Assembly: GCA_018394295.1 (NCBI GenBank)
Contig: CP074573.1
Location: 2,425,156-2,489,155 of the forward strand
Reading direction: 5' to 3'
Source of the DNA: Mycoplasmatota bacterium
Lineage (GTDB): Bacteria; Bacillota_I; Bacilli_A; Haloplasmatales; Haloplasmataceae
Length of the DNA stretch: 64,000 nt
Shown: piece by piece, positions 46,656-58,735 of the stretch
Layout: the number at the start of each line of letters is the position of its first letter
How positions within the stretch are numbered: the stretch's first letter is position 1
The notes under the pieces: generated by a model
What the model was told of the DNA's origin: nothing
Seen by the model: the letters and a program-made list of their open reading frames with translations, nothing else
Database searches by the model: none
Position numbers and translations under genes: made by a program

Positions 46656-47948
46656 TTATTTACCTGATACTAATACATCTTTAATCTTAACATAAGGGAA
46701 TATATGACTACCAAAATCAACATTTTCTTTTGAAATTTCAATAATATTGTTAAATGCTTCTTTTAAATTTAGTGCAATCATTGTTTCATTTAATGGATAT
46801 TTAATCTCCCCATCTTCAATGTAGTAACTATTTTTTAAAACAACAGATAAATCGCCATTTTCATTTGGGTGACCACCAGATACACGATTAACTAGCACAC
46901 CTTTTTCTATAGATTTAATCATATCTTTAAGGTCTTGTTCACCTGGTTCAAGAATATAACATCCACCCATGTTATTTGATCTTTCTAACCCTGTTTTATT
47001 AGCACCATATTGAGATAAAGCATAAGATTTTAAAATTCCTTTATCAATGATTGTCATATTCTTAGCTTCAAAACCATCGTTTGTGATATGATAACCATTT
47101 GCGATTTTTTCACTTCTTGGTGCAGCATGTAATGTTAATTTTGGGCTAGCTACTTGTTCATTTAATTTATCTTTTAATAAACTAGTTCCAGACATTAATG
47201 ATATATCAGTTAAGTAAGTATTTACATAATTTGAAATAATTGATGATAAACAATCCGGTGTAAAAATCACATCACCATTGAATTTACCTTCTATTCCTTT
47301 TGTTTCTATTTGTCCAATTGTTTCATCTAATACTTGTTTTAAAGAACCATAACTTAATAAATTATTTTCTAATTTTCTCAAATAATAGCCTGAATAATTA
47401 AATGAAGAACTTTTTGTTCCTTCTTTAGCCGCAAATACACTTGAGAAATCATAAATTCCTTTTGTTTCTTTAAAATCTACATCATTAGAATTCATTATAA
47501 ACCTTGTAGTCAAAGTAAAAGAAATCGCTGTATCCATTAATTTAATTGTCGGATAGATTGATTTAATATCTTTTACATATTGAGCTAACAAGTCATACAT
47601 TTTATCTAAATCTGGTTCATTATCACCAATAATAAACGCCTTTTTGTCTTGAACTGAAGCAATATCAAATGCTTCATCTTTCTCTGAATTTTCACATATT
47701 TCTATAACTGAAGTTAATGCTTCATCAACTGTTTTTTTATCAGTTTTATTAATCGAGATAGAACCTTTTTTGTTATCATTAATAACAATAACATGATATG
47801 TATTGTTTATTGTTGTTCTTAATAGAGAAATTTCGCCATTATCAAGATTCAATTCATATTTTCGACTTTGTGATACGCTACATTGACATTTATCAACTTT
47901 GTCTTTCATTTCATTAATGGTATATTTTAAAATTTCATTATCAAACAT
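46656..47948 (-). CDS. pmbA: TldE/PmbA metalloprotease subunit
   Basis: A 430-residue partner subunit of the TldD/TldE protease. It lacks the HExxxH motif, as expected for TldE. Family features: the N-terminal repeat of charged beta strands, GVLVNRVSGGHPNENGDLSVVLKNSYYIEDGEIKYP region near 345-380 (described by position), and LTLHAAPRSEKIANG near 258. It starts 1 bp after tldD, so both are made together. The complex degrades unfolded peptides and matures some peptide natural products; no such peptide gene is seen nearby. Confidence 0.92.
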   Translation of the reverse strand: MFDNEILKYTINEMKDKVDKCQCSVSQSRKYELNLDNGEISLLRTTINNTYHVIVINDNKKGSISINKTDKKTVDEALTSVIEICENSEKDEAFDIASVQDKKAFIIGDNEPDLDKMYDLLAQYVKDIKSIYPTIKLMDTAISFTLTTRFIMNSNDVDFKETKGIYDFSSVFAAKEGTKSSSFNYSGYYLRKLENNLLSYGSLKQVLDETIGQIETKGIEGKFNGDVIFTPDCLSSIISNYVNTYLTDISLMSGTSLLKDKLNEQVASPKLTLHAAPRSEKIANGYHITNDGFEAKNMTIIDKGILKSYALSQYGANKTGLERSNNMGGCYILEPGEQDLKDMIKSIEKGVLVNRVSGGHPNENGDLSVVLKNSYYIEDGEIKYPLNETMIALNLKEAFNNIIEISKENVDFGSHIFPYVKIKDVLVSGK

Positions 47949-47949
47949 T

Positions 47950-49335
47950 TTATTCGCCCCCTATATTAACTTTACATTTAATTGAAGGACCGCCCATTCC
48001 AACAGGAATAGGTTGCTTTTTACCACACATACCACCTGCACCAGCCCATATCATTTCATCAGAAATAGCAGTTATACTTTTTAAGACATCAAAAGCATTA
48101 CCTGATATCGTAGAATCTTTAATTGCTTTTCCTAATTTTCCATTTTTAATTTCATATCCCATTGTTACAGCGAAAGTAAATTCACTGGTTGTATCTGCTT
48201 GTCCATTAGATGTTTTTGTTAGATAGTAACCATCTTCAATTGATGCAATCATATCTTCTAGTTTGCTCTCACCAGGTAATATAGCAGTATTACGCATTCT
48301 AATTAATGGTTCATCACTAAATTGCCAAGCTCTAGCATTACCTTTAGGGACTGTATTAAACAATCGTGCGGATTCTTTATTATGCATATAATTCTTTAAA
48401 ATTCCATTTTCAATTATTACAACATCTTCAGCAACGGTTCCTTCATCATCCATATAGATAGGAATTGTTAAAGTTTTACCTTCATAAGTATGAGCAAAGT
48501 CAACCAAAGAAACAAGTGGACTTGCAACTTGTTTATTCATATATTCAGAAGCAATAGATCCACCTAATACAAGATCAGCCTCAGTAGTGTGTCCAATTGC
48601 CTCATGAGCCAAAATACCAGAAATATTAGTATCTAAGATAATTTCTCTTAATCCAGCTTTAGGGTAAACCCCTTCACTTTTATCAGCTAACTGTTTATAA
48701 AGTTTATCAATATCTTCATAAAAATCACTTGGATTATTGAGTTGATCTTGAATTTCACCTGCTCCACCAAATACTTCGTAAATATTAACTGGTGCACCAT
48801 CTTTCATCATGACAAGTTGTACAACAACAGAAGTTGTCGGTACAAAAGAATAAAAATTAGAATTATCAGATGTGATGAGTGATTTTTCCATTGATAATCC
48901 TCTAACACCAACATATCTTTGAGTTAAATTTGGATATTTTTCTGCGATATAATTATCAATTGTTTTAATATAATCTTTAATTTCTCCCTGCGTTAACGGA
49001 TGTTTATTTGATCTAAAATCTTTTTCCATATTCCCAATTGTTTTCGGAAAGAATTCTTTATCTAAACTCAAGCGTGAATTAAGGAATAAAGCATTATTAC
49101 TTGCTGCTTTCAATACTTCTTTTACACTAGCATCATCTATCTCAGAGTTAGAAGCAAAACCCCAAGATCCATTTTTATAGACTCTAGCACCAACACCATT
49201 ATTACTAGTCTTAGTGTTTGAAACCATGTTCCCATTTAAAAAGCCCATGTTCAATGTTTTGTTTTCTTGAACCCTCAATTCAGTGTATTGAGTCAGTTCA
49301 TCTAAATACTTTTTTAATGATCTTGTTATCATCAA
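47950..49335 (-). CDS. tldD: TldD metalloprotease catalytic subunit
   Basis: A 461-residue catalytic subunit. The zinc-binding HEAIGH (HExxxH) is visible in ISGILAHEAIGHTTEADLV near residue 243. The C-terminal Cys-containing segment WAGAGGMCGKKQPIPVGMGGPSI is typical. It forms a heterodimer with PmbA encoded right downstream and cleaves short unfolded peptides in the cytoplasm. Starts with ATG 49335 behind GAGGGGGATTTG and a good promoter. Confidence 0.95.
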   Translation of the reverse strand: MMITRSLKKYLDELTQYTELRVQENKTLNMGFLNGNMVSNTKTSNNGVGARVYKNGSWGFASNSEIDDASVKEVLKAASNNALFLNSRLSLDKEFFPKTIGNMEKDFRSNKHPLTQGEIKDYIKTIDNYIAEKYPNLTQRYVGVRGLSMEKSLITSDNSNFYSFVPTTSVVVQLVMMKDGAPVNIYEVFGGAGEIQDQLNNPSDFYEDIDKLYKQLADKSEGVYPKAGLREIILDTNISGILAHEAIGHTTEADLVLGGSIASEYMNKQVASPLVSLVDFAHTYEGKTLTIPIYMDDEGTVAEDVVIIENGILKNYMHNKESARLFNTVPKGNARAWQFSDEPLIRMRNTAILPGESKLEDMIASIEDGYYLTKTSNGQADTTSEFTFAVTMGYEIKNGKLGKAIKDSTISGNAFDVLKSITAISDEMIWAGAGGMCGKKQPIPVGMGGPSIKCKVNIGGE

Positions 49336-52629: not shown

Positions 52630-53589
52630 TTATAATAACCTCTTAATTTTGGCAAGATGATACCAATGTGCAAATGACTCTATTAATGATTTATACTCCT
52701 TTTGCGTCCTCCTCCATATTAGTAGATTTTCTAATTGCATTCCTTTTACAAATGGGTCTTCTAATAAATTTGGTATTAAACGTGGTTTACGATAACAAAC
52801 TTCAGTTTCAATTAACTTTATCATACTAAAATAATCATTTTTCATAATATTGGAAGTTAAGGGGTGTTCTGATAAAGTTTTTAACCCCAGATACCGTACT
52901 CCCACTTCATGTACTAAAGTATTCTTCATCATCGACCATTTATATTTATCTCCAAATACAATTTGCTGAGGACCTAAACTACTAGCAGTTGTAGGATTTT
53001 CAGGACATATAATTAGATTAAATTCATCGTATGGATAATTTATCCCTAATTCTTCATTCCATTTTTTAAATACCTGTACCTGTTTACAATCGTTTTCCCA
53101 GGATAATAAATCATAATTAATTATTTTAGACCTATAGATATCTTGATAAATAGGCCATAATTTATTAATAAACTTAAAAAAATAATCAACTACTTTTATT
53201 ACCTTCTTAGGATTTCTACTAATAGATTTAAAAAGATAAGTCATCCATGATGAATTATACCAGTCATCCCAATATTTTGTCTCACTAGGCCAGCTATTTT
53301 TAAATACTTCGATAGATTGGCTACAAACAAAATGGTTAATTGCTTCCTGAATTTTAATTAACTTATCAACTGAATTAGGATTAAGATAGGATGGAATTTG
53401 ATAAACAAGAGTAAAAATCGGTCCACCTGCAGCTGGAGCACAAAAAGCAAACTCAGTACCAAACTTTTCTAATTTTTCTGCCTCATGTTGATACTTTTCA
53501 TTAACTTTTCCCCCAATAAAACCTAATTGTTTTAATCCGTAATAACATAGAGAGGCATAATAGGACTTCTTAACATATACTTTAGACAT
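52630..53589 (-). CDS. Unknown protein with HEVGVR motif, paired with an ArsR regulator
   Basis: A 319-residue, mainly helical soluble protein, rich in Trp and Tyr. A zinc-protease-like motif LVHEVGVRYLG places His227-Glu228 followed by Arg where a second His would be expected; a later Glu in LIETEVCYRKPR (~262) could be a third ligand. ICPENPTTASSLGPQQIVFGDKYKW lies just before (by position ~195-218). No known family recognised. The gene overlaps the regulator gene by 8 bp, so the pair is one unit under the palindromic operator. Confidence 0.7.
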   Translation of the reverse strand: MSKVYVKKSYYASLCYYGLKQLGFIGGKVNEKYQHEAEKLEKFGTEFAFCAPAAGGPIFTLVYQIPSYLNPNSVDKLIKIQEAINHFVCSQSIEVFKNSWPSETKYWDDWYNSSWMTYLFKSISRNPKKVIKVVDYFFKFINKLWPIYQDIYRSKIINYDLLSWENDCKQVQVFKKWNEELGINYPYDEFNLIICPENPTTASSLGPQQIVFGDKYKWSMMKNTLVHEVGVRYLGLKTLSEHPLTSNIMKNDYFSMIKLIETEVCYRKPRLIPNLLEDPFVKGMQLENLLIWRRTQKEYKSLIESFAHWYHLAKIKRLL

Positions 53590-54478
53590 TATTCTCCCCC
53601 TTGTTCATTGAGTTAAGGAAAAATACCAACTCTTGAAGCCGCGAGATTTCAGGAGAAAACCGGACGATACGACCTGATTTTGAACGAGATACTAAACCTG
53701 CTTGTCTTAAAATTGTGAAATGATGAGATACTGTTGCTGGTGTTATGTTTAATTGTGAAGCTAATTCAATTCCCTCAATACTCCCACCATTTAGTAATAA
53801 CTTTTTCATGATAGCCAGTCGATTCTTTTCTCCTAAAGCAGCTAAACACCTAACATATAGATCATTATTTTCATAAGCACTCAAATTATCCCTTATATTT
53901 CTTGTACCAAATAAAATAATTAGATTGTCATTAACATTGTTAAATCCTAATTGAGTATCTAAAAATAATAATGGAATTAGTATGATTGACTTGGCATTCT
54001 CAATAATTAATTGATGTTCTAATGAAATTTTCTGTTTACATTGCCCTTCTAAGAATCTTATCACCTGATCAATATTATTTATTTCTACATTATCCCATCT
54101 GTCATATCGTTTCTTTATTTTTGTCCAATATTTAGAAAAACCTAGTTCCCAAACACTTCTAGCAATCTCCATTATAGACTTTATTTGATTTGAGGTATTT
54201 ATTTCATTTAAATCTTTATCATTTAAAACGATATCACCATGTTCTAAAAAAATTTTTATTATAGGTTCTATTTGTTCTTCAATTGAATCTAAATCTTCTT
54301 CTGGAAACGCATATTTTAGTACATCTGAATTATTAATTTTGTATTCTTTATGATATTTTAAATAATCACAGTCACTAGGAAATATTCCAGGGTTTTGTAT
54401 CGCAACAAATCCCATAAATATCTCCATAGTAGCGTATTCTTGAATTTTTATTCGTACATTACTTCTTTTAATAAACAT
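53582..54478 (-). CDS. ArsR-type transcriptional regulator with large N-terminal domain
   Basis: A 298-residue protein. Residues ~1-205 form a helical domain without known motif (DUF5937-like in general layout). Residues ~212-295 are an ArsR-type winged helix: CLAALGEKNRLAIMKKLLLNGGSIEG, LASQLNITPATVSHHFTILRQAGLVSRSKSGRIVRFS (recognition helix near 255). No metal-binding Cys pair is seen in the helix usually used. ATG 54478 chosen; GTG/TTG codons 9-12 bp upstream are possible. First gene of a two-gene unit. Confidence 0.88.
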   Translation of the reverse strand: MFIKRSNVRIKIQEYATMEIFMGFVAIQNPGIFPSDCDYLKYHKEYKINNSDVLKYAFPEEDLDSIEEQIEPIIKIFLEHGDIVLNDKDLNEINTSNQIKSIMEIARSVWELGFSKYWTKIKKRYDRWDNVEINNIDQVIRFLEGQCKQKISLEHQLIIENAKSIILIPLLFLDTQLGFNNVNDNLIILFGTRNIRDNLSAYENNDLYVRCLAALGEKNRLAIMKKLLLNGGSIEGIELASQLNITPATVSHHFTILRQAGLVSRSKSGRIVRFSPEISRLQELVFFLNSMNKGENNV

Positions 54479-54500
54479 CTCATTCACCAACCTTTTCTAT

Positions 54501-54530
54501 AGATTAGATAATTATCTAATTGTCTAATCT
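54501..54530. promoter_or_regulatory. Nested palindromic operator of the ArsR unit
   Basis: The perfect palindrome ATTAGATAATTATCTAAT (54503-54520) sits in a wider inverted pair AGATTAGA (54501-54508) and TCTAATCT (54523-54530). It lies right after the -10 box, over the expected start of transcription and before the regulator gene, as expected for autorepression. Confidence 0.75.
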
Positions 54531-54531
54531 A

Positions 54532-54560
54532 ATTATATAACATATATAATTAAACATCAA
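54532..54560 (-). promoter_or_regulatory. Promoter of the ArsR unit
   Basis: TTGATG (54555-54560), 17-bp spacer and TATAAT (54532-54537) on the minus strand, with the operator directly downstream. Confidence 0.75.
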
Positions 54561-54592
54561 TGAAAAAACTGTACTAATCAATAGTACAGTCA
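54561..54592 (-). terminator. HD-domain gene terminator
   Basis: ACTGTACT-AATCAAT-AGTACAGT hairpin (54568-54590) followed by six T on the minus strand, 4 bp after the HD gene stop. Confidence 0.85.
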
Positions 54593-57434: not shown

Positions 57435-57998
57435 ATGAGCATTAATGTATTTAATGAAACAGAAATTGAACTAATAAAAAATAATCCAAATGTTAAGCGT
57501 GTGTCAAGTAAATCTATTACTTATACCCTTGAATTCAAGATTGACTTTATGCATGAATATAGAGGCGGAAAATTACCACGTCAAATATTTATTGAACATG
57601 GTTTTGATGTTGATATTATAGGGATGAAACGAATAGAACAATGTGCAACTAGATGGAAGAGACTTTATAATGACGGAGGCGTTGTTTCACTTGATGATTC
57701 CCGTAAAGATAATCGAGGAAGATATAAGCATGAAATTCAAACCGAAGAACAAGAGATTGAGAAATTAAAGGCTAAAATTGCTTTAATAGAAATGGAAAAT
57801 GATATGTTAAAAAAGCTCGACGAAAGCGAAAGGAGGAATGGGAAAGAAATAAGAAAAAGTGATAAATTTGAGATGATCAAAAAGTCATCCATAAATCTAG
57901 AAGACCAGGAATACAAGATTATTTATGTAGTGTGGCAGAAGTATCAAGAAGTGGTTACTATAACTACCATTCAGAAAAATCAAAGAAGAATAGAATGA
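57435..57998 (+). CDS. IS3-family OrfA (HTH and leucine zipper)
   Basis: A 187-residue open frame. Residues ~28-85 are the DNA-binding HTH (YTLEFKIDFMHEYRGGKLPRQIFIEHG, RIEQCATRWKRLY by position) and ~100-130 a coiled coil (EQEIEKLKAKIALIEMENDM). The frame probably stops being used near residue 150: a -1 shift at the A-rich AAAAAG (57879-57884) would join FEMIKK to VIHKSRRPG of OrfB. The last ~35 residues (VVWQKYQEVVTITT...) look like out-of-frame OrfB. AAGGAGAAGAGGAT precedes the ATG. Confidence 0.88.
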   Translation: MSINVFNETEIELIKNNPNVKRVSSKSITYTLEFKIDFMHEYRGGKLPRQIFIEHGFDVDIIGMKRIEQCATRWKRLYNDGGVVSLDDSRKDNRGRYKHEIQTEEQEIEKLKAKIALIEMENDMLKKLDESERRNGKEIRKSDKFEMIKKSSINLEDQEYKIIYVVWQKYQEVVTITTIQKNQRRIE

Positions 57999-58735
57999 AA
58001 AAGGAACAAAATGATAAGAAAAGATTTAAACTCATCAAGGAAGTATTTGAGGTTGGAAAGAAAAAGTATGGTGCTAAACAAATTAAGATGCATTTAAAGG
58101 AAAACATGAATTTGAAGTCCATTAGAAGAATTATGAGTAAATATGGTCTAGTATGTAAAATACGTAGACAGGATCCTTATAAGCAGATGTTAAAAGCAGA
58201 TCAAAACCATAGAGTACACAAGAATCATTTAAATAGAAACTTTGATCAGCAGTCTCCATATAAGGTGTTACTGACTGATATTACGTATATAAGGTATAAT
58301 AATAGATTCGCATATTTATCTACCATATTAGATGGTAGTACGAAAGAATTAGTTGCTTATAAGGTATCAAATAATCTTAAAATTGACTTTGTATTGGATA
58401 CAGTTAAAGAATTAGACAATATAAACTTACCCGAAAATGCCATTATACATTCGGACCAAGGAAGTCATTATACAAGTCCTAAATTCTCAAAAGAAGTGAG
58501 GTCAAGAAACTTACTTCAATCAATGTCTCGTAGAGGTAACTGTTGGGATAATGCACCTATAGAATCGTTCTTTGGCCATATGAAAGACTATATAGACTTT
58601 TCAGAATGTAAAACATTAAAAGATGTAGAACTAAAAATAGATGATTATATGTACTATTACAATCACCAAAGATATCAGTGGAAACTAAATAAGCTGACTC
58701 CTATTGAATTCAGGAATCAGCTTAAAGCAGCATAA
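57932..58735 (+). CDS. IS3-family OrfB integrase/transposase
   Basis: A 267-residue rve-type integrase core, full length. N-terminal AEVSRSGYYNY, HTH_21 region YGAKQIKMHLKENMNL, then DDE residues: Asp in LLTDITYI (~113), Asp in IIHSDQGSHYTS (~172) and Glu in NAPIESFFGHMK (~208), followed by the YYNHQRYQWKLNKLTPIEFR C-terminus. It is made alone or as an OrfAB fusion by -1 frameshifting; the fusion is the active transposase in this family. The open frame extends upstream of 57932 to about 57874. Confidence 0.93.
   Translation: MAEVSRSGYYNYHSEKSKKNRMKKEQNDKKRFKLIKEVFEVGKKKYGAKQIKMHLKENMNLKSIRRIMSKYGLVCKIRRQDPYKQMLKADQNHRVHKNHLNRNFDQQSPYKVLLTDITYIRYNNRFAYLSTILDGSTKELVAYKVSNNLKIDFVLDTVKELDNINLPENAIIHSDQGSHYTSPKFSKEVRSRNLLQSMSRRGNCWDNAPIESFFGHMKDYIDFSECKTLKDVELKIDDYMYYYNHQRYQWKLNKLTPIEFRNQLKAA

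Follow-up and report, generated by a model that had tools for sequence, protein, structure and literature searches.

Two genes on the minus strand of a Haloplasma genome raise the question of what a long ArsR-type regulator controls, and what a co-encoded protein without a known family could contribute to that control. Haloplasma is a salt-lagoon bacterium; the whole stretch of its DNA that was analysed, hereafter the window, is 64,000 nucleotides long. The regulator gene (53582-54478, minus strand; 298 aa from an ATG start) was defined from the ORF list, profile matches and an ortholog, and encodes a long, one-component-like ArsR protein termed here regulator A, whilst the partner gene (52630-53589, minus strand; 319 aa) was taken from the ORF list. 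An earlier reading of the sequence alone had described a 298-residue regulator and a 319-residue protein overlapping by 8 bp, and the ORF coordinates confirm this (53582-53589). The interpretation preferred here, to which a probability of roughly 60% is given, is that the pair forms a two-gene operon in which a long-ArsR repressor acts on a TTAGAT-N4-ATCTAA dyad, within an overlapping detoxification/efflux regulon of paralogous repressors, and in which the partner is co-expressed.

The C-terminal part of regulator A (residues ~214-288; 53615-53839, minus strand) is an ArsR-family winged helix with the recognition segment TPATVSHH. It matches both HTH_5 (E 9e-9, 35.5 bits; cut-off 22) and the NCBIfam model HTH_metalloreg (NF033788; E 3.9e-15, 55.4 bits; cut-off 55) above their curated cut-offs, in agreement with the ArsR-type assignment made from the sequence alone. 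The ~200 residues that precede it (53879-54478, minus strand) constitute a putative sensor domain, for which no match was found in Pfam, DUF5937 (PF19361) included. Its final ~40 residues (IxxP...IILFG) can be aligned with the sensor domains of DUF5937 and other long ArsR proteins: when this pre-HTH hairpin was compared by hhalign with a combined profile of two sister regulators (B and C, described below), a score of 27.2 was obtained (p 0.0027), which none of 150 column shuffles reached. Regulator A thus appears to have a DUF5937-like architecture, a sensor region ending in IxxP and a β hairpin followed by a C-terminal ArsR HTH, with the ~40-residue segment weakly related. The AlphaFold model of regulator A (pLDDT 45) was too poor for a fold search.

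The best family name for regulator A is metalloregulator ArsR/SmtB, and one explanation of the pair would be a metal-sensing repressor of this type with a metal-handling partner. Like the ArsR/SmtB proteins of NF033788, regulator A combines a winged helix with a short dyad operator over the promoter, and the ortholog of the partner retains five of its six cysteines together with two histidines. Membership of the ArsR/SmtB metalloregulators is, however, defined by ligands in α3 (CxC) or α5 (DxH...HxxE), and residues 214-298 of regulator A hold no α3 cysteine and no last-helix His/Asp set, that is, neither ELCVCDL-type cysteines nor D-x-H ligands. Regulator A further differs from these proteins in its 200 extra N-terminal residues and in the exporter-type genes that share its operator, since these are drug-type exporters and TldDE rather than metal pumps. 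Metal sensing is therefore considered very improbable.

Upstream of regulator A, the promoter TTGATG-17-TATAAT is present at 54560-54532 on the minus strand, and the ortholog carries TTGACA-17-TATACT in the same place. An intrinsic terminator (54567-54591, minus strand) sets the pair apart from the upstream HD-domain gene. The nested palindrome that the sequence-only reading had placed directly after the promoter was found as described. It contains a putative operator, ATTAGATAATTATCTAAT (54503-54520, minus strand), an 18-bp perfect palindrome with the core TTAGAT-N4-ATCTAA that lies 11 bp downstream of the -10 element. The outer arms of the nested palindrome are AGATTAGA and TCTAATCT (54530-54523 and 54508-54501), the former an extra half-site (54523-54530, minus strand) that is partly kept in the ortholog as AATTTGA. 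By itself such a palindrome is unremarkable, because 64 kb of the window's composition should contain about one perfect palindrome at least 18 bp long (0.95 expected, two observed). What makes it significant is where it lies, and that it recurs in the promoter of the ortholog and in those of sister operons: the ortholog retains ATTAGA-N6-TCTAAT, which stands at a fixed position 10-11 bp after the -10 element in both genomes.

The window is part of a 3.29-Mb genome. The orthologous pair is found in a metagenome-assembled genome (MAG) of the same genus, labelled Haloplasma contractile (G001; JAENYC010000011.1, locus L007), where the genes are adjacent, in the same order, and share with the window HisC and DUF1189 membrane protein genes on one side. 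Identity between the orthologs is 56% for the partner and 45% for regulator A. The 8-bp overlap is not kept, a 4-bp gap separating the two genes in the MAG. Nucleotide divergence (NG86) gave dN 0.48 and dS 1.09 for regulator A, and dN 0.36 and dS 1.25 for the partner; as dN lies well below dS in both genes, both are maintained proteins. The other flank of the pair in the window consists of HD-domain and SOS-peptidase-like genes, and an IS3-type two-ORF transposase lies close to this neighbourhood (57435-58735). In the MAG, regulator A and its partner are clustered with regulator B, an ABC exporter and an OppB/DppB-like permease, an arrangement in keeping with a common regulon. The permease, of the OppB/DppB type, is a lone gene (L007:9001-9954) that lies 38 bp 3′ of the partner in the MAG and is not at that place in the window.

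Conservation of the pair outside the window was among the checks proposed with the earlier reading, and it held in part: order and place are the same in the Haloplasma MAG, and that genome is the only other one found to have the pair. Beyond chance matches, no further pair was seen in ~150 relatives, 395 genomes of the class and 392 of the phylum (overlapping sets), and a peptide-pattern search of 85,000 species genomes, a plasmid collection and viral contigs likewise gave only chance matches for the pair. Candidate distant relatives of the partner from profile and pattern searches (an AAA-type ATPase frame, an HAD phosphatase and frames containing stops) were rejected as chance. As far as seen within the genomes searched, the pair appears to be restricted to one genus.

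The dyad has a wider distribution than the pair. It also precedes the genes of three further types of long ArsR regulator in Haloplasma and its relatives; for two of these types, this was seen in genomes in which no copy of the pair was found. Regulator B (344-348 aa) is DUF5937-like, with scores against PF19361 of 24.6 and 19.0 bits that lie below the cut-off of 27.1, and adjoins a DrrA-like ABC-2 exporter; regulator C (356-370 aa) overlaps a MefA-like MFS gene; and regulator D (359 aa) is the last gene of a GNAT-TldD-TldE operon. A TldD/TldE (PmbA) metallopeptidase gene pair is also present in the window itself (46656-49335), that of the regulator D operon being a second one elsewhere in the genome. 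The N-terminal regions of these regulators are very divergent, and of that of regulator A only the pre-HTH hairpin could be aligned with the combined B and C profile.

Seven exact copies of ATTAGA-N6-TCTAAT were counted in the window genome (one in the control): one each at the pair and the ABC exporter operon, three in IS copies and two within genes. Regulator B of the same genome has a copy with two mismatches. The six exact copies in the MAG (none in the control) lie at the pair, the ABC operon, regulator B, the MFS operon and two intragenic positions, so that promoter sites number two in the window genome and four in the MAG. The three IS66-like copies (L036, L037 and L038), which carry ATTAGAAAAAAGTCTAAT between transposase genes, were rejected as operators because they represent one repeated element, and the single-mismatch sites retrieved from other places in both Haloplasma genomes are mostly intragenic. 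Across genomes, three have the dyad in front of the DrrA-like ABC exporter and of the long ArsR gene that belongs to it, among them G003, in which no copy of the pair was found and where the dyad precedes both regulator B and the ABC operon. The dyad stands before the operon of the MefA-like MFS gene and its long ArsR regulator in three genomes as well (including G002 and G007, before the MFS-regulator C operon), and in addition in Acetoanaerobium noterae (Clostridia), whose MFS-regulator C operon (L094:2660-2740) has a dyad with one mismatch; this near-identity suggests an old specificity. In the window genome, two perfect TTAGAT-N4-ATCTAA cores precede the regulator D operon (L020:69-137; G000:C1 ~2945069), the first just after the -10 element and the second 51 bp downstream. 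For random 120-bp promoters matched in dinucleotide content, the probability of containing a copy with no more than one mismatch is ~0.001, a figure that serves as a guide only, the consensus having been drawn from these sites. On these sequence comparisons, the dyad is put forward as an operator class common to the operons of long one-component ArsR regulators.

The position of the dyad varies with the operon. In the ABC promoters it is found 10-11 bp after the -10 element, with a second, overlapping dyad that reaches into the -10 region in two of them, and in the regulator B promoters it is found 0-7 bp after the -10 element. The MFS promoters of Haloplasmataceae have it upstream of the -35 element, so activation would fit there too. 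At the pair, regulator A would act as a one-component repressor, with an N-terminal ligand-sensing domain and a C-terminal ArsR winged helix, which binds the dyad over the transcription start and blocks RNA polymerase; the ligand whose binding would lift the block is probably a toxic peptide or small molecule. Autoregulation by regulator A is plausible and considered likely. Most probably, the pair is part of a detoxification/efflux regulon in which several paralogous repressors overlap, a reading suggested by the presence of the dyad before the ABC exporter and regulator operon and the GNAT-TldD-TldE-regulator operon in the window genome, and before the MFS operon in sister genomes. The dyad of the pair could also be cross-bound by regulator B or D. 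It could even belong to one of these only, the pair being a target that is not autoregulated and regulator A acting elsewhere; the dyad does serve regulator B and regulator C operons in genomes in which no copy of the pair was found. Against this, each of the four long ArsR types is encoded in an operon whose promoter carries the dyad, an indication that their specificity is shared, and their recognition segments are alike (TPATVSHH in regulator A, and TTATISHH, SSATISYH and STATISYH in the others). Exclusive ownership of the dyad by regulator B or D is accordingly considered unlikely.

The partner is a new protein. The sequence-only reading had recognised no family for it, and profile searches of Pfam, NCBIfam, PHROG, PADLOC and PDB bear this out, none giving a credible match; the PDB search, part of the structure check that had been proposed, returned no match. 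Matches to DpnD_N, YraN and PHROG families were short, far below cut-off, and were discarded. The same reading had suggested that this could be a stress-sensing peptidase-like module, noting the His-Glu in HEVGVR (residues 227-232; 52894-52911, minus strand). A peptidase-like nature is not supported: the motif is not HEXXH and is invariant in the two orthologs, Arg included, for which reason an HEXXH zinc peptidase is not supported; no peptidase domain was matched in Pfam or NCBIfam with the whole protein or its halves, and no peptidase family even at E 10. The AlphaFold model of the partner, built from a two-sequence input (mean pLDDT 39.6), was too poor for a fold search or to show a metal site. 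Also invariant between the orthologs are H242, five of the six cysteines and the acidic pair E261-T-E263 (52801-52809, minus strand), which is followed by the invariant C265; if the partner binds metal, E261/E263 would be a possible third ligand.

Repressor-metallopeptidase pairs of the ImmR-ImmA and DdrO-IrrE type are encoded by tightly linked genes (PMC6540685, PMC8072749) and combine an XRE repressor with a COG2856 HEXXH peptidase (PMC8072749). The pair resembles them in the close linkage of a repressor gene to the partner gene behind it, whose product contains His-Glu, and in the AlphaFold model, poor as it is, the His-Glu segment is predicted to be helical with the invariant E261/E263 in the next helix. 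An antirepressor role, in which a zincin-like partner would cut the repressor or otherwise disable it in response to stress, is nevertheless a most improbable explanation. The HTH here is of the ArsR type and C-terminal, as opposed to the N-terminal XRE HTH; the partner is an HEVGVR orphan, with Arg instead of the second His in both orthologs; and the peptidase families are those that failed to match. From its co-location, the partner would instead be co-expressed as an effector or co-sensor, and not as an HEXXH protease that cuts the repressor.

Could the partner be a relative of the sensor domain itself? Residues 119-205 align by hhalign with the combined sensor-domain profile (p 0.027; three of 150 column shuffles scored at least as high), and the alignment is collinear, from NPKKV..LWP..Y to IICPE. 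A partner that is related to the long-ArsR sensor domain but lacks the HTH and stands alone, and that would assist the repressor as a co-sensor or by carrying a ligand, would account for this, but the score is weak, identity is 6%, the alignments are shallow, and hhalign of the partner directly against regulator A or D showed no relation; such a role is regarded as doubtful. A more specific proposal, in which the partner represents a new family, the long-ArsR sensor half split off as a co-encoded protein with an added His-Glu helix, acting as a split sensor-repressor in a shared-operator detoxification regulon, is less probable again.

For the preferred reading, a long-ArsR repressor in an efflux-type regulon, the closest functional parallel is offered by the DUF5937 regulators beside efflux genes on plasmids of Lactobacillaceae (e.g. 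NZ_CP113124.1, NZ_CP116750.1); the literature on DUF5937 and long ArsR regulators yielded nothing useful. These proteins also have an N-terminal sensor region and a C-terminal ArsR winged helix, although the N-terminal domain of regulator A falls below the DUF5937 model, and they adjoin a drug-type exporter, just as exporters stand beside long ArsR genes in Haloplasma. Some are followed or overlapped by a small second gene, as in the pair, but it encodes a short HTH-like protein unrelated to the partner, and the one plasmid operator region inspected is of a TTCGAA type that differs from TTAGAT-N4-ATCTAA. A parallel two-gene layout was observed at three loci on lactobacillus plasmids (L092:4425-5018, L096:5122-5748 and L097:5104-5676), in which the DUF5937 regulator is followed by a short 'transcriptional regulator' gene and accompanied by a divergent MFS pump.

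The regulator half of the pair is thus understandable, and its orphan partner defines a protein family whose function the regulon's inducers could reveal. TTAGAT-N4-ATCTAA offers a concrete DNA code that at least four long ArsR regulators of one bacterial family have in common at their operons, where each regulator is accompanied by an exporter, a protease or an orphan gene of its own, and the shared dyad makes cross-regulation among paralogous repressors directly testable.
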